Shown here: positions 12,155 through 36,211 of the stretch, piece after piece
Numbering within the stretch: the stretch's first letter is position 1
How the letters are laid out: every line of letters begins with the position of its first letter
DNA from: Leptospiraceae bacterium
GTDB lineage: Bacteria; Spirochaetota; Leptospiria; Leptospirales; Leptonemataceae
Assembly (NCBI GenBank): GCA_026418015.1
Contig: JAOACE010000013.1
Span: forward strand, 124,001 to 188,000
Reading direction: 5' to 3'
DNA: 64,000 nucleotides
Notes under the pieces: generated by a model
Told to the model about the DNA's origin: nothing
Database searches by the model: none
The model's input: the letters and a program-made list of their open reading frames with translations, nothing else
Made by a program: the position numbers and the translations under genes

Positions 12155-12257
12155 AACCGTCCTGCTACTCCACACAGCAAACCATGCTGTGCCATCCGCA
12201 ATGAAGGGCTTTACTTCCGTGTCCGTATGCGAACGGTATCCTATGGATCCCCTCGTT
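12155..12257 (-). pseudogene. Degenerate 5S rRNA copy
   Basis: Reading the minus strand, this stretch aligns with the intact 5S at 12323-12432. It keeps near-identical blocks such as ACGGAAGT and AAGCCC and the region around GCTGTGTGG and AGCAGGACGGT, with many changes elsewhere. The terminal closing stem GGCACCG/CGGTGCC is lost at both ends. I read it as a decayed duplicate rather than a working gene, though a diverged functional copy cannot be excluded. Confidence 0.75.
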
Positions 12258-12322
12258 TATTTCAATTATTATTTTGAATGATTTTTTATGATTAGTAATA
12301 TCAAGTAATATAAGGAAGAACC

Positions 12323-12432
<110 letters not shown>

Positions 12433-12441
12433 GTTGAATAC

Positions 12442-12470
12442 CATATAATTTTAACACTTTATCTTTGCAA
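12442..12470 (-). promoter_or_regulatory. Promoter of the 5S rRNA gene
   Basis: On the minus strand a -35 box TTGCAA (12465-12470) and a -10 box TATATG (12442-12447) are separated by 17 bases. The 5S 5' end lies about 9 bases downstream. The placement fits a sigma-70 promoter. Confidence 0.55.
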
Positions 12471-12556: not shown

Positions 12557-13480
12557 ATGAAGAAATTTCAACTATGTAAAATTTTATTTTTATTGATATT
12601 AACGAATTGCACTTTTTTTAAAGAAAATAAACCAATTCAGAATCCAGGTCTTGGAGTTTATAAAAAAAATGACATTTATCAAATTTATTTTGATGTGGGA
12701 ATCTTTACTTTTGAGGATCAAAAAATACAACGAAAAGAAATACAAGATTTATTCCAAAAAGTTATAACAGAATTAAAACAAAAATTCAACGATATAGAAT
12801 TAATTCCAGTTTTTGATCAACCACAAGATGCCCCTTTTATTATGAAGCGAGGTATATCAAAACGTTTAAATCCTAACATACAAAATTTTCAGATCAATGT
12901 TAAGTTTAATTATATAAATAACTTTATTGTAGAAATTTCCCATCAAGATGCTTCGAAAAAATATTTTTTATCTAGCCAATTGCATCATTTTTTATATAGT
13001 CAAGTCCGCTATGATATTTTATTAATACCTTTTCCCATCGCATCTGATTTTCATTACAATTCTACCAAAAGAGAATTAGAATTCCACGATTCCGAAATAG
13101 GAATTTCAAAAGGACGAACTGCATTAGATAAATTAGGCATCATCACATACATTGATTACAAAAACATAGATTCCATTTCGAATCAAGAATTAATCAAAAA
13201 AAGCTTATTGTCTTTTATATTGTCCCTACCATTAGAAACTACCCTAGAATTTTTAAAAAAGGATTGTTTCGAATGCGACAACTATCTTAAAAAAAGAAAA
13301 AAAATTTTTGATATATACAACAACTTTCACAATGGTAACCTTAAACAAGGTTGCGAAGATTTATCTCTCTATTGGAAAAACTGGATCGAACATCCATATA
13401 TAAAAAAACATTCATTAGTAATAATTCAACAACTAGAAGAAAATTACGAAATTTTACAAAAAAGATGCAAAAAATCGTAA
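12557..13480 (+). CDS. Putative lipoprotein of unknown function
   Basis: A 307-residue protein not recognised. The N-terminus MKKFQLCKILFLLILTNC is a lipoprotein signal with Cys18 as the acylation site. The rest has no repeats or membrane helices. It contains mixed alpha/beta segments and a late Cys pair (CFECDNYLKKR). It begins 124 bases from the divergent 5S gene and is followed 28 bases later by a second lipoprotein gene, so the two probably form an operon. No catalytic motif is visible. Confidence 0.7.
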   Translation: MKKFQLCKILFLLILTNCTFFKENKPIQNPGLGVYKKNDIYQIYFDVGIFTFEDQKIQRKEIQDLFQKVITELKQKFNDIELIPVFDQPQDAPFIMKRGISKRLNPNIQNFQINVKFNYINNFIVEISHQDASKKYFLSSQLHHFLYSQVRYDILLIPFPIASDFHYNSTKRELEFHDSEIGISKGRTALDKLGIITYIDYKNIDSISNQELIKKSLLSFILSLPLETTLEFLKKDCFECDNYLKKRKKIFDIYNNFHNGNLKQGCEDLSLYWKNWIEHPYIKKHSLVIIQQLEENYEILQKRCKKS

Positions 13481-14179: not shown

Positions 14180-15850
<1,671 letters not shown>

Positions 15851-15862
15851 TTAGGATTTTGA

Positions 15863-16147
15863 TTATTCGATTACTGCCAGTATATCACTTTCACGTACAA
15901 TCAAATATTCTTTACCATCTTTTTTAATTTCTGTACCAGCATACTTACCATAAAGAACGCGATCTCCCACCTTTACTTGAAGTGGTACAACTTTTCCGTT
16001 TTCTTGACGACCAGGTCCAACAGCAATTACTTTACCTTCTTGTGGTTTTTCTTTTGCTGTATCGGGAATAATGATGCTACCAATTCTTTCTTCTTGTTGT
16101 TCAATGGGCTCAATTAATACCCTATCAGCTAATGGTTTAATGTTCAT
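15863..16147 (-). CDS. groES: Co-chaperonin GroES (Hsp10)
   Basis: A 94-residue lid of the GroEL chamber. It begins [19 protein letters not shown], has the mobile-loop region [17 protein letters not shown], and ends in [17 protein letters not shown], all standard for the family. It is the first gene of the operon, with AAGGAGG seven bases before its start. The long 5' region carries a CIRCE-type repeat, so repression by HrcA is likely. Confidence 0.97.
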
Positions 16148-16341: not shown

Positions 16342-16356
16342 TAGTATGACATACTA
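16342..16356. promoter_or_regulatory. Perfect 7-1-7 palindrome before the transporter/cyclase operon
   Basis: TAGTATG-A-CATACTA is a perfect palindrome 36 bases upstream of the small frame at 16392 and 128 bases before the transporter frame. Its position just before the operon suggests a repressor or activator site. The binding protein is unknown. A weak promoter-like pair (TTGCTA at 16314, AATATT at 16337) lies immediately upstream. Confidence 0.45.
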
Positions 16357-16391
16357 TTATCCAAAATATAAATATATATAGAAAGGATATC

Positions 16392-16469
16392 ATGATAAAA
16401 AATTTCTATGAACATTACTTTAATTCCTTTTACTTATATTTAAATTTACTTAGCAAAGCATTATTATAA
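16392..16469 (+). CDS. Possible 25-residue leader peptide
   Basis: ATG with a fair ribosome binding site (AAGGA, 5 bases upstream) opens a 25-codon frame rich in Tyr, Phe and Leu that stops 14 bases before the transporter frame. Its first bases ATGATAAAAAATTT are repeated almost exactly at the transporter start (GTGATAAAAAATTT), so both peptides begin with MIKN. It may be a leader peptide or a leftover of a duplicated start. The remaining 16148-16483 region holds only the sites listed separately. Confidence 0.3.
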   Translation: MIKNFYEHYFNSFYLYLNLLSKALL

Positions 16470-16483
16470 AAAATATTTTTAAA

Positions 16484-18483
16484 GTGATAAAAAATTTAGT
16501 TGCATATTTTTTATTTAAGATATTTAATGCAAAAATTATGTATGGAATTATTTCATTTTCTGATTTAGAGACTCATCAAAAAAAACAATTTTTAGAAGAA
16601 ATGATATTTAAATTTACTTATCTATCAGAAATCAATAACTACCAATTAGCGAAATATATGTCCTTTTTTAAGGTTTATCATTGTAATACAAATCAACAAG
16701 TATATAACAAAGGCGAGAATGCAAAACATATTTACTGGATTCTAAAAGGGGAAGTTCAATTATATGATGTAAATACACAAATAAAAATAAAGGAAAATGA
16801 AGTTTTTGGTGATGAATCTCTATGCTCTAATGTACATTATTTTTTAAATGCTAAAACTACTTCTGAAAGTATTTTATTAGTTTTAGATGCAGACAATGCA
16901 CAATCCTTAATTTTAAATAATCTAAAAGATCAAAATATCATCCAAAAACTTTTAATCAAAATTGATGGAAAACAAGAATCCTATACAGAAAACCTAACAA
17001 AAGAAATTCCCATTAATGATGTTCATAAAAGCAAATTAAATTTTTTCTTTAAAAGAAACAATTCAATTAAAATCTTGGGTTGGTTATTAGCTATAACTTT
17101 ACCATTTCTACATTATTTTTTAATGTTTGAAAATCCCAAATATTATATCAATTGGAATAGCCATATTTTTATTAGTATATTTATCGCTGTACTTATAATG
17201 TGGGCTTTTCGTTTAATTCCCGAATATGTTACAAGTATTTTTGCTATTTTATCAATTTTAATATTAAATATAGCACCACAAAACATTGTTTTAAGTGGCT
17301 TTACAGATGGAAGTTTTTATTTAGCATTGAGCATTTTTACACTTAGTTCTTTAATTGTAAGTTCTGGTTTTGCTTATCGGATTGTACTATGGATATTAAG
17401 ATTAGTACCTGTTTCGACACGATGGTATACTTATAGCATTTTTTTTATTGGTTTCTTTTTAACTCCTATACTCCCATCTGCAAATGGTAGGATTAGTCTA
17501 ATTGTTCCTATTTTAAAGGACTTTATCCATTCTTTAGGTTTAAATCATACAAACAATCATTCAAAAGTAAAAGAATTGGTATCTATAAACAAAATTATAA
17601 CTGCTACCTTTATCAGTACAACAACATTTTCTAGCATTTTTTTAAGTAGTAAAGCAATACATTTTGTCGTTCTTGGTTTATTCCCTATTCAATTAAAAGA
17701 ACGTTTTACTTGGAGTTATTGGTTATTTGCTGCTTTTATGGCTGGTTTAATTCTTATAATTGGTTGTATTTTTTTACTAGAAATTTTTTATTCCAAAACA
17801 GAAAAACCACTAATAACGAAAAAACATATCGAACTCCAATATTTAACATTAGGGAAATCAGCGAAAATGAATATGCTGCAATTGGAGGCTTAATATTATT
17901 TATATTTGGTATTGCATCCTCTTCTTTACATAAAATATCCCTACCATGGATTGGTTTAATGATCCTTTATGCAACGTTATCGTTAGGTTTTATCAATCAC
18001 AAACAATTTAGAGAAAATATTGATTGGACTTTTTTAATATTTCTTGCATCAATGATTGGATTTATTAAAACATTTTCTTTTATCGGCCTTGAATCTGTTT
18101 TTTTAGAAAATTTTAAATGGTTAGGAATATACATGCAAAAAAATATAATGATATTTGTTATTTTGAGTTTTATCATCATCTTAGTTATGAGGCTTTTTAT
18201 TCCATCGAACTCTGCTGTTATAATTCTTACTACAATTTTATTTCCAATAGCTCAGACTTATGGTATTAATCTTTGGATAGTTAGTTTTATAATATTAATG
18301 TTCAGCGATATGTGGTTTTTTCCTTATCAATCCACCTACTATATTCAATTTGAAAATGAAATGTGTGATGAAATCTATTTTAACGAAAAAGATTTATTAA
18401 TATTTAATGGTATTTCGAACATTTTTAGAATTCTTGCTATTTTTATATCAATATATTATTGGAAGCAGGTTGGTATTTTATGA
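16484..18483 (+). pseudogene. Cyclic-nucleotide-binding-domain/SLC13-type transporter, frameshifted
   Basis: Two frames make one protein. The first (16484-17893) has a cNMP-binding-like domain (about residues 45-150: YNKGENAKHIYWILKGEVQL), then membrane helices of an SLC13/DASS-type anion transporter (TDGSFYLALSIFTLSSLIVS, TPILPSANGRISLIVPIL). The second continues the transporter in the -1 frame (ISENEYAAIGGLILF, FIPSNSAVIILT) to 18483. Adding one A to the AAA at 17855-17857 restores a single frame of about 666 codons. The end overlaps the next gene as ATGA, so the second part is ancestral coding sequence. The start is uncertain: GTG 16484 has no clear ribosome binding site, and ATG 16538 is an alternative. 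It may be a pseudogene or a sequence error; a slippery site is not convincing. Confidence 0.75.
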
Positions 18484-19502
18484 AAGACAAACATTTTAAC
18501 TACGAAAAAGTTCTTGCTTTAATATTTCTAATTTTATTTGTAATATTTCTTATTTATCTTAATTTAAATAAACCAAGAATCTTCATTGTCCATAGTTATG
18601 ATACAGATTATTCATGGGTAGTAGATATTAACATTGGATTAAATAGAATTTTTCAAAAATATTCATACAATATAAGATATTATTATATGAACACAAAACG
18701 CAACCCAGACAAAAATTATATCGAAAAAGTTGGTAATTCAGTAATTAAAATGATCAAAGATTGGGAACCGGATATTTTAATTGCAATTGATGATAATGCA
18801 CAAGAATACGTAGCAAAACATTTTATTAACAATCCAAAAATGAAGATTATTTATTCAGGTGTTAATGCAAACCCTCAAATTTATGGATATGACAAAGCTA
18901 ATAATGTAACTGGTATTCTGGAACGTTTACCCTTTAATGCATTTAAAGAAGTTTTTTTACAAATTTTACCTCCCGATAAAAGAAGAATTATGCATATCGC
19001 GGATGCTTCCGAAACATCATATTTTATTCAAAAAGAAATTGAAGAATTAAATTGGTATCCTCTGATTTTAAAAAAAACAATCTTATGTAAAACAATTCAG
19101 GATTGGAATAATGCAATTGAATATAGTCAACAGAATGCTGATATATTATTCATTACACATTATCATACTATCAAAGATAATCATGGTATTGTTATAAAGC
19201 CATCTAAAATCATTGAATTAACCGAATCAAAATTAAAAATTCCTGCAATAGGAAGCTGGGGTTTTTTTGTCGAGGATGGAGGTATGATGGCTGTAGCTGT
19301 ATCTCCTTACGAACAAGGAGAAGAAGCAGCAAAGATAGCAGTTGAAATATTAGAAAAAAAACATGATATTCAAAATATAAAACCTATTGTAAGTCGACTA
19401 TTTGTTATTTATATAAGAAAAGATAGTATAATTAGAAGAAATCTTAAATTACCAACATTAATAGAAGCATTTGCAAAAGCTACAAACAATTTTTATGAAT
19501 AA
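18480..19502 (+). CDS. Periplasmic binding protein-like sensor, membrane-anchored
   Basis: A 340-residue protein with one N-terminal helix (about residues 12-33) and an extracytoplasmic domain of the ABC-substrate-binding-like type (PF04392-like). Marks are IFIVHSYDTDYSWVVDINIG, YYYMNTKRNPDKNY and ILIAIDDNAQEYV, followed by IIYSGVNANP. The start codon overlaps the transporter stop as ATGA, indicating translational coupling. It is clearly related to the N-terminal half of the next protein (HSY, YMDTKR and AVDDNAL at matching places), so the two arose by duplication. The likely role is sensing or delivering a ligand for the transporter/cyclase system. The ligand is unknown. Confidence 0.75.
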   Translation: MKDKHFNYEKVLALIFLILFVIFLIYLNLNKPRIFIVHSYDTDYSWVVDINIGLNRIFQKYSYNIRYYYMNTKRNPDKNYIEKVGNSVIKMIKDWEPDILIAIDDNAQEYVAKHFINNPKMKIIYSGVNANPQIYGYDKANNVTGILERLPFNAFKEVFLQILPPDKRRIMHIADASETSYFIQKEIEELNWYPLILKKTILCKTIQDWNNAIEYSQQNADILFITHYHTIKDNHGIVIKPSKIIELTESKLKIPAIGSWGFFVEDGGMMAVAVSPYEQGEEAAKIAVEILEKKHDIQNIKPIVSRLFVIYIRKDSIIRRNLKLPTLIEAFAKATNNFYE

Positions 19503-21456
19503 AATTTATAAAATACTACTATTAATAATATTAATTAACAAAAGTATTTTACCACAAAATTCAGAAAAGAATGTATTAGTTTTACATTCTTATCATAAAG
19601 GATTAAGTTGGACAGAGCAAGTAATTGAAGGTATAGAATCTGTATTTAATAATAAAGTTTTAACAACCTATAATATTAAAATATTTTACGAATATATGGA
19701 TACAAAACGTTTCGAAGATGAAAATTATCTACAGCTATTAATACCAATTTATAAATATAAAGCACAAAAAATAAAATACGATGTTATAATCGCTGTTGAT
19801 GATAATGCACTTAATTTTCTTTTAAAGCATAGAAATCAAATATTTGGAGAAATACCAATTGTATTTTGTGGAATAAATTTTTATGACGAAACACGAATCC
19901 ATACAATTAAAAATATTACTGGTGTTGTTGAAGCTTTTTCTGCTAAGGAAAATATCGAATTGATTTTAAAATTACATCCAAATACAAATCATATAGTTGT
20001 AGTAGGTGATAATACTCTAACATCACAATTAAATAATATGGTTTTAAAAAAAATCGAAAAAGATTTTTCTCAAATACGTTTTGAATATCTAACATCCGGA
20101 AATCTTAATGAATATAGAAGACATTTGAATTCTCTAAAAAAAGGTTCTGTTGTCTTATCAATGTTGTTTAATTTAGACAATAATAAAAAATTTTATACAT
20201 ACGAAGAAAGTTTTATACTATATAGTAGTGGTATAAAAGTCCCAATATATACATTTTGGAACTTTTATATTGGACTTGGTTCTATTGGAGGAAAAATCAT
20301 TCACGGTTTTTCGCAAGGAAGTGTTGCAGCTCAATTAGCACTTCAAATATTAGATGGTCAAAATTCAGATAGTATTCCAATTATAACAGAAAGTCCAAAT
20401 CAATATATCTTCGATTATAAACAACTAAAAGCATTCGATATCGATGAGAGTCTTTTACCAGAAAACTCAATACTAATGAATAAACCAGTTGACTTTAAAG
20501 AATTCTATCAGAAATATAAACTTTATATAAATATTATAATTATTTTATTTATTTTTCTTATTTTTATTATTATATTTTTATTAATGAATATAAAGAAAAG
20601 AAAATCCATCGAAAAAAAACTATTAGAAACGAATATATCCTATTACCGATTTGTTCCAAAAGAATTTTTAAGTTACTTAGGAAAACAAGAAATTACCGAA
20701 GTTCAATTAGGTGATTCCTTAGAAAAAGAATTTACGATATTGTTTTCTGATATTAGAAATTTTACTAACATATCCTAAAATATGTCCGCACCAGAAAACT
20801 TTCAGTTCGTAAATGATTATTTATCATTCATGGGACCTGCAATAAGAATGTACAATGGTTTTATTGATAAATTTATCGGAGATGCAATTATGGCATTATT
20901 CGCAGATGCAAACGATGCTATAAAAGCTTCCTTAGAAATGTTCAATCGATTGTATGATTTTAATGAAGTCTGTAAAAATAAGTATAATATATCTATTTCT
21001 ATCGGAATTGGAATTCATACAGGAAAATTAATGTTAGGAACAGTAGGAGAAACTTATAGAATGGATAGTACTGTAATTTCCGATGTTGTGAATGTTGCTT
21101 CTAGATTAGAATCATTAACAAAAAAATATGGAGTAAAAATATTATGCTCTAAAGAAATTCTAGATAAACTCGGAGAAAAATCTTTATTTTATTCTATTCG
21201 TTATTTAGGTAAAGTTGTTGTAAAAGGAAAATCAAAACCTACAACCATCTACGAAATTGTGGATGGAGAAGAGTTTTCTATAAAAGAAATTAAGATAAAA
21301 AATCGTCTACAATTAGAAGAAGCGATTAAACTTTTCGAAAAAAATCAAATTCAAGAATCCATAAAAATTTTGGATGAACTTTATAAGAACTATCCACAAG
21401 ATAAAGCTATACAATATTTATACAAAAAAATATCGTCAAAAGAGCCTCATAACTAA
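19495..21456 (+). pseudogene. Receptor-type class III nucleotide cyclase with in-frame stop
   Basis: About 653 codons: signal peptide, periplasmic binding-protein-like domain (about residues 20-330), one membrane helix (about 345-370) and a class III adenylate/guanylate cyclase domain. The frame is broken by TAA at 20776-20778 inside the motif FSDIRNFTNIS-stop-NMSAPENF; homologous cyclases have Glu there, so GAA to TAA is the simplest change. The rest continues in the same frame to 21456, with KFIGDAIMALF (second metal Asp) and MDSTVISDVVNVASRLE (transition-state Asn and Arg) intact. Asp...Lys/Asp residues favour ATP as substrate. Its product could bind the cNMP domain of the transporter. It is a pseudogene, a read-through gene or a sequencing error. 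Confidence 0.75.
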
Positions 21457-22518
21457 TTACTTTGCATTAACACCAATGATATCTTTTATATTTGCCTTTT
21501 CTTTTTCTAAAAAACTATCGATATGTTTTAGGATTTTTTTTGGTAAAAAAGGACCTTCGTAAACATAACCTGTATAGATTTGAACCAAAGATGCACCAGC
21601 CATAATTTTTTCTAATGCATCATTTCCATTAAAAATGCCTCCTACTCCAATAATAGGAATTGTTCCTTTTGTAAAAACAAATGCTTTTTTGATCCATTGT
21701 GTAGAAATATCTCTTAACGGTAATCCCGATAATCCACCCGATTCTGCAAACTTTAATTCCTCTGGTCTTTGAATGGTTGTATTGGTTAAAACTAATCCAT
21801 CAATTCCGCTATTGATAGAATCTTCTATGATTTTATAAAATTGTTTTTCGCTTAAATCTGGTGCTAACTTAATTAAAATTGGCAAAGACAAATTCTTTTC
21901 TTTGATTCTTTTTTTTAAATATTGGATCAATTCTAATAACATTTTAGATTCTTGTAGATCCCGTAAGTTAGGTGTATTTGGAGAGCTTACGTTAATTACT
22001 ATATAATCAGCAAAAGGATACAATTTTTCGAAACATTGAATATAATCATCCATTGCTTTTTCTAATGGAGTGATTTTATTTTTCCCAATATTGATACCTC
22101 TTGGCAAAGTTTTTTTTTGTTTTTGAAAGGTTTCTTTTGCTTTTTCTATCCCAGGATTGTTAAATCCCATTCTATTGATAATTGCTCTATATTGAGGATA
22201 CCTAAACAATCGAGGTTTGGGGTTTCCTTCCTGTGGTAAAGGAGTAAATGTGCCACATTCAATAAAACCAAAACCCATAATAGATAAACTTTCGAAAAGT
22301 TCCCCTGTTTTATCGAATCCAGCTGCTAATCCCAAAAAATTAGGAAATTCAACATTCCATACTTTGATTTTAATTCTTTCTGAATTAAATGTTAAAAGAG
22401 ATTCTTCTACTAAACTTAATGGAGTGTGATTGATAAATTTTAACACGTTTGCTATAAATTCATGGGCATTTTCTGGATCAAAAGAAAATAAAATAGGTTT
22501 TAAAATGTCATAAATCAT
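21457..22518 (-). CDS. pyrD: Dihydroorotate dehydrogenase (quinone), class 2
   Basis: Oxidises dihydroorotate to orotate in pyrimidine synthesis, passing electrons to membrane quinone. The 353 residues match class 2: an N-terminal amphipathic helix region (ILKPILFSFDPENAHEF), then LGLAAGFDKTGE, ECGTFTPLPQEGNPKPRLFR and INRMGFNNPG. INVSSPNTPNLRDLQ carries the catalytic Ser, and ILIKLAPDLS and GVGGIFNGNDA bind FMN. The stop codon abuts the end of the convergent cyclase gene without any spacer, so the two share a transcript-end region. Confidence 0.96.
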   Translation of the reverse strand: MIYDILKPILFSFDPENAHEFIANVLKFINHTPLSLVEESLLTFNSERIKIKVWNVEFPNFLGLAAGFDKTGELFESLSIMGFGFIECGTFTPLPQEGNPKPRLFRYPQYRAIINRMGFNNPGIEKAKETFQKQKKTLPRGINIGKNKITPLEKAMDDYIQCFEKLYPFADYIVINVSSPNTPNLRDLQESKMLLELIQYLKKRIKEKNLSLPILIKLAPDLSEKQFYKIIEDSINSGIDGLVLTNTTIQRPEELKFAESGGLSGLPLRDISTQWIKKAFVFTKGTIPIIGVGGIFNGNDALEKIMAGASLVQIYTGYVYEGPFLPKKILKHIDSFLEKEKANIKDIIGVNAK

Positions 22519-26191: not shown

Positions 26192-27364
26192 ATGTTACCA
26201 ATCACAGATTTACTTAAACAAATAAAACAAATCGCAACAATCGATACAAAAGAAAACGTTCGATTTGCAAACGATCTTATAAAACCAGTTGTGGTGTGGA
26301 ATGTAAACGAATATTGTAACATGTCTTGTCCTCATTGTTATGCTTCTGCCAAAGTTATTAAAAAAAATGCTCAAGAACTACCCACCGAGCAAGCAGAAAC
26401 TATTTTAAAGCAGCTCTATCAGTATGGTATAAAAGTACTGATATTTTCTGGGGGAGAACCATTACTACGCAAAGATCTATTCCATTTAATCGAATTAGCA
26501 TCAAATTTAGGATTTCAATGTCATTTATCAACAAATGGAGTTTTAATTAATGAAGAAATTGCTCAAAAACTAAAACAACTCGGTGTATTCTATGTTGGCA
26601 TTAGTGTAGATGGACTTAAAGAGTTCAACGATTCTTATCGCGGTTTAAAACGTGCATTCGAAAAGGCTTTTTTAGCATTTTATTACTTAAAACAAAACCA
26701 ACTAATGACTGGATTAAGAATAACCCTAAGTAAAGCAAATAAAGATCAGCTTCTTCCTTTAATAGATTATGCTATTCAACATAAAATTGATCGTTTTTAT
26801 GTATCCCATTTGCTCTATTCTGGTCGCGGTAAAGAAATTCAAAAAGAAGATTTATCTCCGGAAGAATCTAAACAATTCATGTGGGAAATTTTTGAATTAG
26901 CAGATCAATTTATACAACAAAATCAAAACATACGATTTGTTTCTGGTGGAAATGATGTAGATGGAGCACTTTTATATTTATTTGTAAAAGAAAAATATGG
27001 AGAAAGCAGAGCAGACGAAATACGACTTCTGTTAGAAAAGCGAAAAGGAAATTCTGCTGGAGAAAAAATTATCAATATTGATCATTTAGGAAATGTTCAT
27101 CCCGATCAATTCTGGCGAAATTATACAGCAGGCAATCTTTTAAATCATACTCTAGAAGAAATAATGAACGATCCTCTATTCCTAAAACTAAAAGAAAGAG
27201 AAAAATATTTAAAAGAATGTCAGGCTTGTCCTTTTTTAATGATGTGTAGAGGTTCTCACAGAGAGCGAGCATTAGCAGTATACAATGATTTATGGGCAAT
27301 CGATCCAGCCTGCTATTTAAAAGAATATATTAACAAAAAACCTATAATAGGAGTTAGAAAATGA
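26192..27364 (+). CDS. nirJ: Heme d1 biosynthesis radical SAM protein NirJ
   Basis: A 390-residue radical SAM enzyme. Cys42, Cys46 and Cys49 in YCNMSCPHCYA form the CX3CX2C cluster motif, followed by FSGGEPLLR. The C-terminal region ECQACPFLMMC plus a later Cys holds a second Fe-S cluster as in SPASM-type proteins. NirJ removes two propionate side chains of 12,18-didecarboxysiroheme during heme d1 synthesis. The place between the Rrf2 regulator and nirF, and nirS downstream, supports NirJ rather than the related AhbC/AhbD of alternative heme synthesis. Its end overlaps nirF by 4 bases. Confidence 0.88.
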   Translation: MLPITDLLKQIKQIATIDTKENVRFANDLIKPVVVWNVNEYCNMSCPHCYASAKVIKKNAQELPTEQAETILKQLYQYGIKVLIFSGGEPLLRKDLFHLIELASNLGFQCHLSTNGVLINEEIAQKLKQLGVFYVGISVDGLKEFNDSYRGLKRAFEKAFLAFYYLKQNQLMTGLRITLSKANKDQLLPLIDYAIQHKIDRFYVSHLLYSGRGKEIQKEDLSPEESKQFMWEIFELADQFIQQNQNIRFVSGGNDVDGALLYLFVKEKYGESRADEIRLLLEKRKGNSAGEKIINIDHLGNVHPDQFWRNYTAGNLLNHTLEEIMNDPLFLKLKEREKYLKECQACPFLMMCRGSHRERALAVYNDLWAIDPACYLKEYINKKPIIGVRK

Positions 27365-28539
27365 ATCAATTTAAAATATTATTATTAATATTATTTATAA
27401 TTTCTTTTAATTTATGGAGCAAAGAAGAAGTTCGCGTTGGTTCTTTTATTTATGTAGTAGAAAGAGAAAGTTCAACATTAGCTGTTATAGACATCGATAA
27501 ATACGAATTAGTAAAAAGAATTCCACTCGAAGCGAACCTCCGTCATGCAACAATGGTGTTTGAACCTTCTTTAAAATATGGATATATAGCAACAAGAAAT
27601 GGAAAATTAAATCGTATAGATATCGAAAATAAAGAATTTGCTGGATACATCGAAACATCAAAAAATTCTATTGGACTAGCAATTAGCCAAGATGGACAAA
27701 CTATCGCAGTTTCCGAATATGAACCTGGTGGTATTACCATAGTTTCTGTAAAAGATTTTAAAATTCAACAAGTTATTCCAGCAAAAACCGACGAAAATCA
27801 ATCTTCTCGAATAACAGGTTTGGTAGATGGTCCTAATAATTCTTTTATTTGTGCTCTAATGGATTACAACGAAGTATGGATTCTAGAAAGAGAAAATCCC
27901 GTAGATCCAAATAGTAAATATATCATTGCACGAAAAATAAAAACAGCAGATCTCTATCCATTTGATGGTTTGATAACCCAAGATGGTCGATATTACATCA
28001 ATGCACACTTTAATTCTAATATACTAAGCTTGATTGATTTATGGAATCTAAAAGATAAAGCAGAAAAAATCGATTTTGGAAAATATTCTAAAAAAACACC
28101 AGTCAAAATGCCCCACATGGAATCTTGGGCAAATGCAGGAGAAAAGATCTTTATTGCAGCGAATGGAGAACCAATGCTTCATGTGATCAATGCAAAAACA
28201 TTAAAATATAGTCATTCTATTCCACTAATAGGTGATGGTGTTTACACAGTTGTACATCCATTTCAAAAAGAAGTGTGGATTACCTTTTCTGGGGAAGTAG
28301 ACGGAAAAATTCAAATCATTGATACAAGAACAGAAAAAACGATTAAAATTCTAGATGTAGGAAAGAAAATATATCATTTAACATTTACCCCTCGAGGCGA
28401 TAGAGCATTTGTAAGTTCTAACGAAACCAATGAATTAATCGTAATACGAACTTATGATTATCAAATCGTAAAGAAAATTCCTTTAAAATCTCCGTCAGGA
28501 ATATTCGGAATCTGGAGAGCATTCGAAATTGGACTTTAA
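27361..28539 (+). CDS. nirF: Heme d1 biosynthesis protein NirF
   Basis: A 392-residue protein with a signal peptide (MNQFKILLLILFIISF...) followed by a cytochrome d1-type eight-bladed beta-propeller. Repeated strands such as FIYVVERESSTLAVIDIDKY, YIATRNGKLNRIDIE and VIDTRT-type blades are seen. Segments NLRHATMVFEPS and MPHMESWANAGEKIF resemble NirF and the d1 domain of NirS. NirF carries out a late oxidation step of heme d1 assembly in the periplasm. It starts within the last codons of nirJ (ATGA), so the two are coupled. Confidence 0.87.
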   Translation: MNQFKILLLILFIISFNLWSKEEVRVGSFIYVVERESSTLAVIDIDKYELVKRIPLEANLRHATMVFEPSLKYGYIATRNGKLNRIDIENKEFAGYIETSKNSIGLAISQDGQTIAVSEYEPGGITIVSVKDFKIQQVIPAKTDENQSSRITGLVDGPNNSFICALMDYNEVWILERENPVDPNSKYIIARKIKTADLYPFDGLITQDGRYYINAHFNSNILSLIDLWNLKDKAEKIDFGKYSKKTPVKMPHMESWANAGEKIFIAANGEPMLHVINAKTLKYSHSIPLIGDGVYTVVHPFQKEVWITFSGEVDGKIQIIDTRTEKTIKILDVGKKIYHLTFTPRGDRAFVSSNETNELIVIRTYDYQIVKKIPLKSPSGIFGIWRAFEIGL

Positions 28540-28562
28540 CTAAAAATTAAAAATAAAGAGGA

Positions 28563-29603
28563 ATGAATATGTTAAAAGAAGAACAAAAAAATCAATTAGC
28601 AAAGATTATACAAAAAGGTTTTCCCATTGATCCTAATCCATATCATAAATTGGCAGAAATGTTAGGCATATCTTACACAGAAGTTTTATCGCAATTCGAA
28701 GAATGGTACAATTCGAAAATACTAAGAGAAATTTCTGCAGTTATGGAAGGGGATATTTTACACTACGAATCGGCATTAGTATGTGCAAGAGTTGCTCAAG
28801 AAGATCTCGATATTGTTGTAGATACATTAAAAAAACATCCCACAATCACTCATCTCTATTTAAGGAATTACGATTTTAATCTTTGGTTTACTATATCAGT
28901 ACCAACGGATTCTGGAATAGAAAATCATCTTTATTATTTAAAATATCTTACGGGATATGATTATTATCCACTTCGAAGAAAACAAACCTTTAAAATTGGG
29001 GTAAACTTTGATCTTGTTAAAAAAACCAATCAAACAGAAAAAACCGAAATTCCATCTACAAAAATAAAATTTCCTAAGAATGAACTAACAGAAAAAGTAA
29101 AACAAATCATTCGAGCAATCCAAACTTCTCTACCATTAAGCGATAGACCATTTAAAATATTGGCAAAAGAATATTCTCTCCACGAAGAAGATCTTATTAA
29201 TTTCTTATCGACTTCTCCTTATGGTTGTGTAAGAAAATATATCGCAACCTTCAATCATAGAAATTTGGGTGTATCGTATAATGCAATGACAGTGTGGAAG
29301 GTTCCCGAAAAAGAGCTCGAATTAAAAGGAAATGAACTGGCTAATTTTCCCGAAGTCAGCCACTGCTATTCAAGAGAAACATTCTCTGAATTTCCCTATA
29401 ATCTTTACTCGATGATTCATGGTCCGGACGAATCAACGGTTCATCAAATTGTAAAAAATATTTCGAATCAAATCCATCTATTCGATTATTTGATTCTCTA
29501 TTCTCCCATAGAATACAAGAAAACACGATTAAAATATTTTCTCTTAGAGTTAGAAGAATGGGAGAAAAATATAAATATATTAGAGTTTAAAATATTAAAT
29601 TAG
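28563..29603 (+). CDS. nirD: Siroheme decarboxylase NirDL (fused)
   Basis: A 346-residue Lrp/AsnC-like protein with two consecutive copies of the siroheme decarboxylase unit. The first half (PIDPNPYHKLAEMLGISYTEVL, a helix-turn-helix-like segment, then EISAVMEG) corresponds to NirD. The second (PLSDRPFKILAKEYSLHEEDL, KYIATFNHRNLGVSYNAMTVW) corresponds to NirL, with the typical RN/HR-L(G) active-site loop. The complex converts siroheme to 12,18-didecarboxysiroheme. Fusions of this kind are known. It is 23 bases after nirF on the same strand. Confidence 0.88.
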   Translation: MNMLKEEQKNQLAKIIQKGFPIDPNPYHKLAEMLGISYTEVLSQFEEWYNSKILREISAVMEGDILHYESALVCARVAQEDLDIVVDTLKKHPTITHLYLRNYDFNLWFTISVPTDSGIENHLYYLKYLTGYDYYPLRRKQTFKIGVNFDLVKKTNQTEKTEIPSTKIKFPKNELTEKVKQIIRAIQTSLPLSDRPFKILAKEYSLHEEDLINFLSTSPYGCVRKYIATFNHRNLGVSYNAMTVWKVPEKELELKGNELANFPEVSHCYSRETFSEFPYNLYSMIHGPDESTVHQIVKNISNQIHLFDYLILYSPIEYKKTRLKYFLLELEEWEKNINILEFKILN

Positions 29604-29605
29604 AC

Positions 29606-29634
29606 TTGACTTTTTATTTTAAATAGATTATGAT
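29606..29634 (+). promoter_or_regulatory. Promoter of nirS
   Basis: TTGACT (29606-29611) and TATGAT (29629-29634) are 17 bases apart, a near-consensus sigma-70 promoter 39 bases upstream of the nirS start. nirS can thus be expressed apart from the heme d1 genes. I found no TTGAT-N4-ATCAA FNR-type site near it. Confidence 0.65.
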
Positions 29635-29673
29635 TTATTTTAGTATTTTAAACACTTAAATTGGAGATAGAAT

Positions 29674-31653
29674 ATGAAACCAAAAAGATCCTATAAAATT
29701 TTGGGATTAGGTATGCTAGTAGCGTTCCTTTTCCCAATGGTCAAAGGTAACTTGGTTGGGCAAGAAAAAGAATACAAAGGTAAAGGCAAGGAAATTTTTA
29801 ACAATAAAGCATGTATTGCTTGCCATGATTTTAGTGGGACAGATAAACCTACTGGACCCTCATTAAAAGGAGTTACGACAAGAGTTTCTGAAGATTGGTT
29901 AAAAAAATGGCTTAAAAATCCAGACGAAGTAAAAAAAACAGATAAATATGCACAAGAATTAGATAAAAAATTCCCTACTTCTAATATGGTAAATCTTGGT
30001 CTAAGCGATCAAGAAATTAAGGATATTATCGATTATCTAAAATGGATGGATAAAGCTGGTACTGTTGCAACGGAATTTAAACCGCTTTCTTCCCAAGAAT
30101 TCGAGAAAGCAAAATATATCTATTTTAATAAATGCTCTGGTTGTCATGGTGCAAAACGATGGGGTGCAACTGGTCCTTCTCTATTACCTAATTCCCATAT
30201 AAAACAAGCTAAAGAATATCCTGGTGGAGGTACACGAGATAAAGGTACAGAAGCGTTAAAAGCAATTATCTGGAATGGAACGCCAGCAGGTATGCCACCT
30301 TGGGGTAAAGAAGGAATGTTAACTCCTGAGGAAGTAGACTTAATGGCTCGATATGTACAAATGGATCCACCTCCCGTGCCAAAATTAGAAATGAAAGAAG
30401 CAAAACAAAGCTGGGAATTAATTGTAAAACCAGAAGATAGACCCCAAAGTGATCCTACAAAAGGAAGATTCTTAAACTACTTTGGAGTGATTTTAAGAGA
30501 TGCTGGTAAAGTAGCAATTATTGATGGAACAACCAAACAGTTACTAAACGTAGTTGATTCTGGTTTCGCTACTCATATTTTAAGATCTTCGCACTCTGGT
30601 AGATATTTTTACACAATCGGTAGAGATGGTAGAGTTGGTCTAATTGATTTATGGTTCGATAAACCCAAATTAGTTGCAAAAGTAAGGACATGTTGGGATG
30701 CACGTTCTGTGGATTCTTCGAAAGCACCTGGATACGAAGATAAATATGCAATTGTAGGATGCTATACTCCCAATCAATATTGGATATTGGATGGACAAAC
30801 ATTAGAACCACTTTCTTTAAAAAGTGTAGAAGATTCTAAGGATTGGGCTACGGGAAACAAATTGCCCGAAGTTCGAGTTGCATCTATTGTTGCATCAGAA
30901 GATGAACCATTCTGGGTAATAAACTTAAAAGAATCTGGTTGGGTTTATTTAGTTGATTATAGAGATCCAAAAAATCCAAAAGAAACACGACTAAAAGCAG
31001 ATAACTTCTTACATGATGGTGGTTGGGTTAAAGTGCCTGGTAAACAAGAAAAACGATATTTCTTGGTAGCTGCAAACGCGAAAAATAAAATGTGTATCGT
31101 GGATACAAAAGAACACAAAGTAATCAATTGTCTTGATGTTGGTAAAATACCACATCCTGGACGTGGAGCAAATATTGTCGATCCTCAATATGGACCTGTA
31201 TATGTAACTGGTCATATCGGTGATGAAAAACTTGTCTATATTGGTGTAGATCCAGAAAAATATCCTCAATATGCTTGGAAAGTAGTTCGCGAAATACCTG
31301 TAAAATCTGCTGGTAATCTATTTGTAAAATCACATCCTAATTCAAATCATCTTTGGTTCGATATGCCTCTATCTTCGAAACAAGAAAATGGGACATTCGT
31401 AAATGGTCAAGTGGGAGTAATTGATATCAAAACAGGTAAAATTCTTAAATACATTCAAGTTAGCCCCAAAAGAGTGGTTCACTTAGAATACGATAAAGAC
31501 GGAAAAGAAGTATGGATTTCTGGTTGGTTGGATAACAAAATCTATGTTTATGACGATAAAACACTTGAACTTAAAAAAGTCATTACTGGTGATTGGATAA
31601 AAACTCCCACTGGTAAGTTCAACGTATACAATACGAGTAAAGATATTTATTAG
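29674..31653 (+). CDS. nirS: Nitrite reductase cytochrome cd1 with extra N-terminal cytochrome c domain
   Basis: Reduces nitrite to NO in the periplasm. The 659 residues are: signal peptide (to about residue 29); a first c-type domain with Cys47, Cys50 and His51 (CIACH); a second with Cys154, Cys157 and His158 (CSGCH); then the d1 beta-propeller (THILRSSHSGRYFYTIGRDG, PHPGRGANIVDP, VYVTGHIGDEKL), with the expected heme d1 His residues. Standard NirS has only the second c domain; the first resembles a stand-alone electron donor such as NirC or cytochrome c55x, so donor and enzyme appear fused. It has its own promoter after the nirJ-nirF-nirDL genes. Confidence 0.93.
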   Translation: MKPKRSYKILGLGMLVAFLFPMVKGNLVGQEKEYKGKGKEIFNNKACIACHDFSGTDKPTGPSLKGVTTRVSEDWLKKWLKNPDEVKKTDKYAQELDKKFPTSNMVNLGLSDQEIKDIIDYLKWMDKAGTVATEFKPLSSQEFEKAKYIYFNKCSGCHGAKRWGATGPSLLPNSHIKQAKEYPGGGTRDKGTEALKAIIWNGTPAGMPPWGKEGMLTPEEVDLMARYVQMDPPPVPKLEMKEAKQSWELIVKPEDRPQSDPTKGRFLNYFGVILRDAGKVAIIDGTTKQLLNVVDSGFATHILRSSHSGRYFYTIGRDGRVGLIDLWFDKPKLVAKVRTCWDARSVDSSKAPGYEDKYAIVGCYTPNQYWILDGQTLEPLSLKSVEDSKDWATGNKLPEVRVASIVASEDEPFWVINLKESGWVYLVDYRDPKNPKETRLKADNFLHDGGWVKVPGKQEKRYFLVAANAKNKMCIVDTKEHKVINCLDVGKIPHPGRGANIVDPQYGPVYVTGHIGDEKLVYIGVDPEKYPQYAWKVVREIPVKSAGNLFVKSHPNSNHLWFDMPLSSKQENGTFVNGQVGVIDIKTGKILKYIQVSPKRVVHLEYDKDGKEVWISGWLDNKIYVYDDKTLELKKVITGDWIKTPTGKFNVYNTSKDIY

Positions 31654-33586: not shown

Positions 33587-36211
33587 ATGAATTTTATAAC
33601 ATTAAAAGAACAGAATTTCTTAAAGAATTATAAACATGGTGGGGATCTTTTATTATACAACCAAATTCTATCGGATAAAAAAATCTATGATTTTTCTGTA
33701 AATTTAAACCCAATTGGTCCGCCTGATTGGTTAAGGTTTATGATAAATTCTCATTTCGAAAAAATTTATCAATATCCAGAACCATTCGCAGAAAGTTTAA
33801 CAAAAAAGTTAGCCGAATTGCATAAACAATCAGAGGATCATTTTTTGATTACCAATGGCATAAATTCCATCATTACGATTTTGGGAAAAATTTTACAAGA
33901 AAAATATCATCTAAAAAAACTTCTATTAACAATTCCCAACTACATAGAATACGAAGAAAAATTTCGTTTTTTAAACTATGATGTGGAATACTTATATTTT
34001 TACGAAGAGAATTCGAAACTCCCAAAATACCATAAAAAGATATTGTGGGATTTAAATCTACTTTCTACAAAAATAAAACCCCATAGTTTGATTGTTTTTT
34101 CGAATCCCAATAATCCAACAGGAAGCTTTATAGATTCCGAAGAAATCGCAGAATTCATTAAAAATTTTCCAAATTCCATCTTTATTATTGATGAATCTTT
34201 TATAGAATTTGCAAACAAAAAATCTGTGATAGATTATCTAGAAAATTTTGACAACACTATTGTCTTTCGTTCTTTTACGAAATTTTATCACATTCCTGGT
34301 ATAAGATTAGGTTATGTAATTAGCCATCCAACTCTTATAGAAGAACTAAAACAATATACAAATTGTTGGAATATCAACACCTTTGCAATAGAGATTGGAA
34401 AAAAGGCAATCGAAGATAAAGAATATCTTGTTAAGACATTGGATTATCTTAAAAAACAAAAAGAATATTTGTTAACGCATCTATCCAAAATCGGACAATT
34501 AAAATTATACGAAAGTCATACAAATTATTTATTCATAAAATTAGAAGATCAAAATTGGGATGCAATAAAACTATTCGAAACTTTATTAAAAGAACATAAC
34601 ATTAGCATTCGAATGTGTTTTAATTACAAAGGGCTTGATAAAAACTATTTTCGCATAGCAATCAAATCCCAGAAAGAAAATGAACTATTGATAAATTCTT
34701 TTTATAAAATATTTTTAAATAAAAGTTTTAATATTAAAAAAAATAAAAAATATACACTAATGATTGCAGGAACATCATCAGATGCAGGGAAAAGTATCTT
34801 AACAACTGCATTATGCAGAATTCTTTATCAAGATGGTTTTAAGGTAGCACCTTTCAAAGCTCAAAATATGTCTTTGAATAGCTATGTAACCAATCAAGGA
34901 GAAGAAATTGCTTATGCACAATATTTACAAGCCCGTGCTTGTTTTATCCCACCCGATAGCAGAATGAACCCAATATTGATTAAACCGGGCACGTTAAATG
35001 GTTCCCAAGTGATCGTTAACGGAAAACCCTACAAAAACTTTACCCCATCAGAATATTATAATTATAAAAAAGCATTGTTTAAAAAAGTCATCCGGAGTTT
35101 TAACAGATTAAAAAAAGAATACGATGTAATCCTATTAGAAGGTGCTGGTAGTATATCAGAGATCAACCTGAAAAAAAATGATTTAGTGAATTTGAACATG
35201 GCTCGTTATGCAGAAGCACCTGTTTTTCTCGTAGGCGATATTGATCGAGGAGGTGTTTTTGGTTCATTTGTTGGTAGTATAGAAGTGTTAAATCATTGGG
35301 AAAAAGAATTAATCCAAGGATATATTATCAATAAATTTCGCGGTGATGAATCTTTACTTCGTCCCGCTATCGAATATTTAGAACAAAGAACGCAGATTCC
35401 TCATCTCGGAACAATTCCTTATATAAAAGAACTAAAACTTCCCAAAGAAGATTCTATGTTTTTCGATGTAATTCAAGCAAACAACAATCACAATTTCGAT
35501 TCTTCTAAAATAAACATAGGTATAATTCAACTTCCTTGTATTTCGAATTTTACAGATTATGATCCTTTTCTCATTGAACCAGACGTAAAACTTTATTGGT
35601 TAAAAGATTCTATTCCAGAGTTTATCGATGTAATTATCATTCCGGGAAGTAGAAATTCTTTTCAGGATTTGCTTTATTTAAAAGAAAAAGGTTTAGATCA
35701 AGCCATCGTAAAAAATAAAAATAAGTTTATTATTGGTATATGTGGTGGTTTACAAATTATAGGCGAATCAATTATCGACGAATATGGCATCGAGTTTAAA
35801 GGGAAATTAAACGGTTTAGGTCTATTAAAAATCGAAACAGTATTTTATCAAGAAAAAGAGTTAAGGAGAATCAGAGCATATCATGAACATTTTAGAGGAG
35901 AAATAGAAGGCTACGAAATTCATCACGGAAAAACAATGTGGGGACGCGAAAAAGTCATACTGAAAAAAAATGATGTTGTTTTAGGAGTAAGCAACGAAAC
36001 AGGAAATGTTTGGGGAACTTATCTACACGGAATTTTCGAAAATGATTCTTTTCGCCGATGGTTGTTAAACCAGGTTAGGATTAAAAAAGGGTTACTACCA
36101 ATAGAAAATATCACAGTTTTTAACCTTAATAGAGAAATCGATTTATTAGCAGAAGTTGTAAGAAAACATTTAAATATTGATAAAATTTATAAAATTATAG
36201 GAATTTTATGA
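33587..36211 (+). CDS. Fusion: threonine-phosphate decarboxylase (CobC/CobD type) + adenosylcobyric acid synthase (CobQ/CbiP)
   Basis: An 874-residue bifunctional protein. Residues 1 to about 380 are a PLP enzyme: NLNPIGPPDWL, SNPNNPTGSF, DESFIEF and the PLP lysine Lys232 in SFTKFYHIPGIRLGY. This matches L-threonine-O-3-phosphate decarboxylase, which makes aminopropanol phosphate for the nucleotide loop. From about residue 388 follows CobQ: P-loop-like GTSSDAGKSILT, FKAQNMSLNSYVT, and a class I glutamine amidotransferase domain with IIGICGGLQIIGE (nucleophile Cys) and THLHG-like YLHGIFEN. CobQ amidates side chains of the corrin. Both steps are late and usually separate genes. The stop overlaps cobO as ATGA. 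Confidence 0.9.
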   Translation: MNFITLKEQNFLKNYKHGGDLLLYNQILSDKKIYDFSVNLNPIGPPDWLRFMINSHFEKIYQYPEPFAESLTKKLAELHKQSEDHFLITNGINSIITILGKILQEKYHLKKLLLTIPNYIEYEEKFRFLNYDVEYLYFYEENSKLPKYHKKILWDLNLLSTKIKPHSLIVFSNPNNPTGSFIDSEEIAEFIKNFPNSIFIIDESFIEFANKKSVIDYLENFDNTIVFRSFTKFYHIPGIRLGYVISHPTLIEELKQYTNCWNINTFAIEIGKKAIEDKEYLVKTLDYLKKQKEYLLTHLSKIGQLKLYESHTNYLFIKLEDQNWDAIKLFETLLKEHNISIRMCFNYKGLDKNYFRIAIKSQKENELLINSFYKIFLNKSFNIKKNKKYTLMIAGTSSDAGKSILTTALCRILYQDGFKVAPFKAQNMSLNSYVTNQGEEIAYAQYLQARACFIPPDSRMNPILIKPGTLNGSQVIVNGKPYKNFTPSEYYNYKKALFKKVIRSFNRLKKEYDVILLEGAGSISEINLKKNDLVNLNMARYAEAPVFLVGDIDRGGVFGSFVGSIEVLNHWEKELIQGYIINKFRGDESLLRPAIEYLEQRTQIPHLGTIPYIKELKLPKEDSMFFDVIQANNNHNFDSSKINIGIIQLPCISNFTDYDPFLIEPDVKLYWLKDSIPEFIDVIIIPGSRNSFQDLLYLKEKGLDQAIVKNKNKFIIGICGGLQIIGESIIDEYGIEFKGKLNGLGLLKIETVFYQEKELRRIRAYHEHFRGEIEGYEIHHGKTMWGREKVILKKNDVVLGVSNETGNVWGTYLHGIFENDSFRRWLLNQVRIKKGLLPIENITVFNLNREIDLLAEVVRKHLNIDKIYKIIGIL

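Follow-up and report, generated by a model that had tools for sequence, protein, structure and literature searches.

The window analysed here, a stretch of 64,000 nucleotides in a draft spirochaete genome (G000:C16:124001-188000; 2.91 Mb in 28 contigs), carries three plus-strand genes that, as far as sequences can tell, have about an even chance of being the decaying copy of a conserved Spirochaetota membrane circuit of three genes, leading from a cyclase to a carrier. In such a circuit, a solute outside the cell would bind the membrane-anchored PF04392 protein as well as the related outer part of the receptor cyclase, which would then make a cyclic nucleotide in the cytosol, cAMP as judged by its residues. 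The product would act on the divergent SLC13/DASS-like carrier encoded alongside and alter its activity, the simplest route being the cytosolic N-terminal cNMP-type domain of this carrier. What the carrier moves would probably be the sensed solute itself or something related to it. The points that we infer are the ligand, the direction of transport, the action of the cyclase product on the carrier and the binding of this product to the N-terminal domain.

The gene order, the conservation and co-occurrence of the genes, their domains, the layout of the hydrophobic helices and the catalytic residues are direct observations. The three genes (Table 1) are flanked by groESL (minus strand, 14180-16147) and pyrD (minus strand, 21457-22518). 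Open reading frames and Pfam matches bear out the content and order given in an earlier note on this DNA, namely a transporter with a cNMP domain, a membrane-anchored binding protein and a receptor cyclase. The overlaps that it had reported are also there: the sequence ATGA at 18480 joins the transporter stop to the binding protein start, and the binding protein and the cyclase share 8 bases (19495-19502). The transporter frame is open from the GTG at 16484, while the homology to the transporter of the sibling genome G013, of the same genus, begins at about the ATG at 16538.

Table 1. Positions, within the window, of the features of the three-gene operon and its upstream region.
Feature	Positions	Strand	Basis
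7-1-7 palindrome of the earlier note	16342..16356	.	no support as regulatory site
Transporter 5' part, cNMP-domain SLC13/DASS-like	16538..17893	+	cNMP domain match 16688-16918; ORF, Pfam, homologues
Frame-shift stretch of transporter	17803..17862	+	overlap of two tblastn pieces of the G013 protein (frames 2 and 1); protein alignment
Transporter 3' part, other frame	17863..18483	+	PF03600 1.3e-8; frame spans 17710-18483
PF04392 binding protein, membrane-anchored, intact	18480..19502	+	PF04392 match; one N-terminal hydrophobic helix
Receptor cyclase, first part	19495..20778	+	periplasmic PF04392-like sensor, then a membrane helix and the beginning of the catalytic domain, which includes the first metal Asp (FSDIRNFT)
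In-frame TAA within cyclase catalytic domain	20776..20778	+	ORF reading
Receptor cyclase, remaining class III catalytic domain and TPR-like tail	20779..21456	+	PF00211 1.8e-12; 51% identical to G011

The 7-1-7 palindrome TAGTATGACATACTA, which the earlier note placed ahead of the operon, is indeed exact, and as a candidate operator it was rejected. It is present in one exact copy; with up to 2 mismatches allowed, the motif occurs 8 times on each strand genome-wide against 13 for the reversed control, and inspection by eye of the G013 upstream region revealed no copy. Therefore, there is no evidence for an operator, and the occurrence of the palindrome is chance-like. In the same region, a short ATG frame of about 25 codons (MIKNFYEHYF...; 16392-16469), preceded by a good ribosome-binding-like sequence (GAAAGGA), lies before the transporter. 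It resembles the start of the GTG frame, both continuing with ATAAAAAATTT, and may be the original start, since displaced, or a small leader.

The membrane part of the transporter is a divergent relative of the DASS/SLC13 carriers according to its profile matches. PF00939 is matched at 1.3e-20 in the window, and the scores in the window and all homologues range from 74 to 104 bits against a curated cut-off of 27, while the cut-off of TIGR00785 (198.6) is reached neither by the window fragment (62.7 bits) nor by the intact homologues (88-100 bits). In the profile search, the membrane part found plant chloroplast dicarboxylate transporters, and the N-terminal hits were all cNMP domains; a single-sequence phmmer search returned no solved relative of the membrane part. 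The 5' part of the transporter is 66% identical to that of G013 and 42% to that of G011, a genome of the window's family that belongs to another genus.

The binding protein has one N-terminal hydrophobic helix, is 62-63% identical to its G011 counterpart and matches PF04392 at 3.2e-14 (53.3 bits against a cut-off of 25.9), without approaching the TrpX cut-off (46.7 against 390). The N-terminal part of the cyclase belongs to the same family (1.8e-13, 50.9 bits, same cut-off), and its periplasmic part is related to the binding protein of the operon, as the earlier note had proposed. In the cyclase, the sensor precedes a hydrophobic helix and the catalytic domain follows it, the C-terminal part matching PF00211 at 1.8e-12. 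The catalytic positions of class III adenylate cyclases comprise two metal-binding Asp residues, a Lys/Thr pair for the substrate, an Asn and an Arg. The intact homologues have all of them, as does the window cyclase when its two pieces are taken separately, and the closest solved relatives, CyaB included, are adenylate cyclases; together these features point to conversion of ATP to cAMP as the predicted reaction. As a side observation, the cyclases of loci L095-L098 with PF04392-like or dCache sensors have in common a W-x-G C-terminal tail (DWDGVQRLDTK, NWQGYLNIDMK, GWVGVIDMHEK and DWNGVSVFTTK), which is absent in G011 and the window.

Then, does this arrangement recur elsewhere? The earlier note had made its proposal depend on finding the neighbourhood in other genomes, and among the 393 genomes of one phylum that were searched for homologues it was found in four, over two orders, with near-perfect co-occurrence of the three parts. 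The trio is intact and in the same order in G011, G184 and G102, and also in G048 with one inserted gene; the last three genomes belong to another order than the window and G011. Overlapping genes in the same order were seen in all four operons. The insert of G048 (L097 5385-6512), between the binding protein and the cyclase, is a metallophosphoesterase with a lipoprotein-like signal. In G041, of a third order, the transporter and the binding protein are accompanied by an unrelated receptor cyclase with a dCache sensor, which is divergently oriented 0.2 kb upstream of the transporter. By our own estimate, given 18 cyclase matches in 3.5 Mb, the probability of such an adjacency by chance is about 1%.

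The transporter occurs in 7 of the 393 genomes, with the G013 remnant included. At E<1e-170, the binding protein is confined to exactly the 6 genomes that have the transporter together with downstream genes, the next best match being 7e-51 or weaker. At E<1e-190, the sensor of the operon cyclase is found in 5 genomes, each of which also has the transporter (next best, 7e-109). The PF04392-type sensor itself is a common input module of Spirochaetota, present in 76 of the 393 genomes. Elsewhere in the phylum, this sensor type is joined to His kinase, His kinase-receiver or GGDEF outputs, whereas every copy next to the cNMP transporter has a cyclase as its output. One example of another output is L083 5903-8086 in G009, where the same periplasmic sensor is joined to a His kinase. 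In the trees of all three proteins, G011 and the window's genus group together, and the genes neighbouring the intact operons differ from genome to genome. Searches started at the order centres of G184, G102 and G041 turned up no additional members, and the plasmid matches were only SLC13 permeases from residue 188 on, 24-27% identical and without the cNMP part. Judged on these sequence comparisons, the trio is a true conserved unit, and the conservation in the same order, the co-occurrence, the other sensor outputs elsewhere and the agreement of the trees provide strong evidence that the three genes function as a unit, and that its output stage is a cyclase in particular.

In the window itself, the operon is damaged as assembled. 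The transporter reads in two different frames, 16484-17893 and 17710-18483, with the shift lying within 17803-17862, and the TAA of the cyclase falls after the first metal Asp, unlike in G011, G184, G102 and G048, where the cyclase is uninterrupted. With both the transporter and the cyclase interrupted, the loop cannot run as drawn in this genome. The 3' part of the transporter is 88% identical to G013 over 76 codons with a pN/pS of 0.14; consequently, the frameshift either arose recently or is an error of assembly. In the sibling G013, too, the transporter lies between groESL and pyrD, with two genes inserted on the groES side, but its final ~100 residues are missing, and neither of the two downstream genes is left. 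The homologue search detected no transporter in G012 and G014, of the same genus. The truncation and deletion in G013, together with the lack of the transporter in G012 and G014, indicate that the operon is being lost in the window's genus.

It could be argued that the frameshift and the stop are both assembly errors and that the operon is intact in the living organism. The assembly is a draft of 28 contigs, a short homopolymer adjoins the frame shift, the remainder of the operon is without visible erosion, and the strong conservation of the 3' part against G013 fits such an explanation as well. However, two lesions fall in one operon, while its neighbours are unbroken in comparison with G013: the transporter is the only gene split between frames among the window genes matching the G013 region, a repeat-like intergenic stretch apart. 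Moreover, of the 26 PF00211 matches that the genome contains, the operon cyclase alone is interrupted by a stop, the other 25 being free of them, and at the same locus G013 has independently lost the transporter end and both downstream genes. We therefore regard assembly errors as an unlikely explanation, and a decaying copy as the preferred one.

In the N-terminal domain of the carrier, PF00027 is matched at residues 69-145 (2.5e-9 in the genome scan, over the Pfam cut-off), and all members score 31-48 bits against a cut-off of 27.5. The phosphate-binding cassette, with the signature G-[ED]-E-[SA]-x(5-6)-Y-x(3)-A, is the best-conserved part, with 21% invariant columns against 3% in the domain before the cassette. 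The position of the ribose-contacting Glu is occupied by Glu in 5 members and by Asp in 2 (window and G013), and one residue later there is an extra invariant Glu. When the transporters are aligned without gaps to PKA and to the cNMP domains of the genome itself, all seven have Tyr in the column of the phosphate-contacting Arg, whereas Pro-Arg-Ser is retained in 6 of the 8 other such domains of the genome; this counts against the circuit. A register shifted by one has the spacing of E. coli CRP, and it finds an Arg in G041 only, one residue later, and none in the other six. The AF2 model of the domain from two sequences (pLDDT 37) is too poor to interpret. The earlier note had also named the lack of a cNMP pocket as a refutation, and on sequence this comes close to being the case: the phosphate Arg is missing in six of seven members by any register, the transporter in the window among them, with the PF00027 fold and the cassette Glu/Asp present.

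There are precedents for such a loss. The cNMP domain of CNNM4, without the Arg and the Glu, dimerises and binds neither cAMP nor cGMP (PMC6940986), and in trypanosomatid PKA the loss of the Arg with a gained cassette Glu has led to the binding of purine nucleosides (PMC10959531). Given these precedents and the missing Arg, direct binding of cAMP, and gating by it, appears rather doubtful for most members, and the chance that the N-terminal domain binds a cyclic nucleotide directly is put clearly below even. The loop of the earlier note consequently survives in part: the cyclase-transporter circuit is well backed by the genomics and the intact copies elsewhere, while the gating of the transporter by the product is doubtful for most members. 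The term 'self-contained' is also too strong for a module in a 2.9 Mb genome with 26 class III cyclase-domain matches (G013 also has 26) and 14 cNMP-domain matches. Other cellular cyclases could feed the cNMP domain, and the adjacency may mean that one ligand governs both import and a global cAMP signal, without gating.

Following the CNNM4 precedent, the domain could be a CNBH domain that binds no cyclic nucleotide and serves in dimerisation or assembly, with the cyclase sensing the same ligand and sending a general cAMP signal elsewhere. The Arg lost in six of seven transporters, the many cyclase and cNMP-domain matches of the genome, and a weak match (8e-4, below the cut-off) between the G013 protein and the CNBH model of CNNM2 would agree with this. 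On the other hand, the position of the cassette Glu, lost in CNNM, still has a Glu or an Asp here; conservation within the domain peaks in the cassette, which is unexpected for a pure scaffold; and the partnership with a cyclase persists in G041 even though the cyclase is a different one; such a role is thus considered improbable. More improbable still is the binding of another small ligand, such as a nucleoside, in place of a cyclic nucleotide. As in trypanosomatid PKA, the Arg is lost and an extra invariant Glu is found, but the gained Glu stands one residue after the ribose Glu here and two in trypanosomatids, so that the parallel is loose, and the conserved neighbour is a cyclase rather than a gene of nucleoside metabolism. 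A tentative proposal, to which we give somewhat more weight than to either of these and still rate below an even chance, is that these are binding-protein-fed SLC13-like carriers whose cNMP-type domain is switched by the dedicated receptor cyclase through an altered pocket (Arg to Tyr, extra Glu), that is, cyclic-nucleotide- or nucleoside-gated secondary carriers of bacteria, with the gene for a ligand receptor of their own beside them.

The role of the binding protein may also be seen differently, in a way compatible with the circuit: it could hand the substrate to the SLC13-like carrier as in TRAP transporters. The transporter and the binding protein are inseparable (6/6), and no ABC permease or ATPase was seen beside them in the loci of the intact operons and of G041. 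In addition, the M subunits of TRAP transporters have the DASS fold in common and depend strictly on a binding protein (SiaPQM; PMC9971032), and the carriers of G011 and G041 also pass the DctM cut-off. However, the usual partners of PF04392 proteins are ABC importers or sensors, no Q-like gene was seen in the ORF lists of those loci, where the binding protein is of the PF04392 type, and the binding protein may only present the ligand to the receptor cyclase. Substrate delivery is a reasonable idea with a fair chance, the highest among the alternatives weighed here, though one short of even.

Some other loci in the window are worth recording. G013 has a tandem repeat of about 61 codons (TEVKPLIADGT...AVWESRTVPVLFF...; L022 243-1100), and related pieces occur at 12155-12444 of the window, upstream of the gene at 12557; this looks like a repeated intergenic element, not a protein. 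A locus of the cd1 nitrite reductase type (26192-31653) contains a NirJ-like radical SAM protein, a NirDL-like siroheme decarboxylase and two Cytochrom_D1 proteins, one of which has cytochrome c domains (NirS-like); the gene for an Rrf2-like regulator precedes it, and several of its genes are common to G013. At 33587-36211, a fusion of 874 residues joins an aminotransferase (PF00155) to CobB/CobQ-type domains (PF01656, PF07685), and is perhaps part of a cobalamin cluster.

Among known systems, the DASS/SLC13 carriers (TIGR00785, PF00939; solved members are plant chloroplast dicarboxylate transporters) are homologous to the membrane part over most of its length. The operon carriers differ from them in falling far short of the TIGR00785 cut-off, in having an extra N-terminal domain, and in SANGR/PNNAT-like motifs where the family has SNT motifs. 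The TRAP transporters (SiaPQM) resemble the operon in that a carrier of the same broad fold is encoded together with an extracytoplasmic binding protein, but no gene for a Q subunit was seen in the ORF lists of the intact operons, the binding protein is of an unrelated family, and the operon includes a cyclase. The binding protein and the cyclase sensor are members, over the Pfam cut-off, of the PF04392 family of TrpX-type proteins (PDB 3lkv, 3lft); compared with these, the binding protein of the operon is membrane-anchored, without ABC partners and far below the TrpX cut-off. The CNNM metal transporters are likewise carriers with a cNMP-like domain without the phosphate Arg; they also lack the Glu, and have no cyclase partner in an operon.

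All the parts are known, while their combination and the altered pocket are not; no paper on an SLC13 protein with a cNMP domain was found in the open-licence literature. The usual view is that cAMP in bacteria acts on transcription factors, and the operon is a testable candidate for direct second-messenger control of nutrient transport. Its altered pocket offers a test of how cNMP domains change their ligand, and the copy in the window may show how such a circuit is lost, with intact copies existing elsewhere. The closest system in working is SLC9C1, the sperm Na+/H+ exchanger, which has a CNBD and a voltage sensor, is cAMP-sensitive and is tied in the literature to soluble adenylyl cyclase (PMC6052114). 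In both, a secondary carrier bears a cNMP-type domain and is linked in function, here by prediction, with a class III cyclase, and the operon may be a bacterial counterpart of SLC9C1. Here, the carrier is of another family and bacterial, the binding protein and the receptor cyclase are encoded in the same operon, and the Arg is missing in most members.
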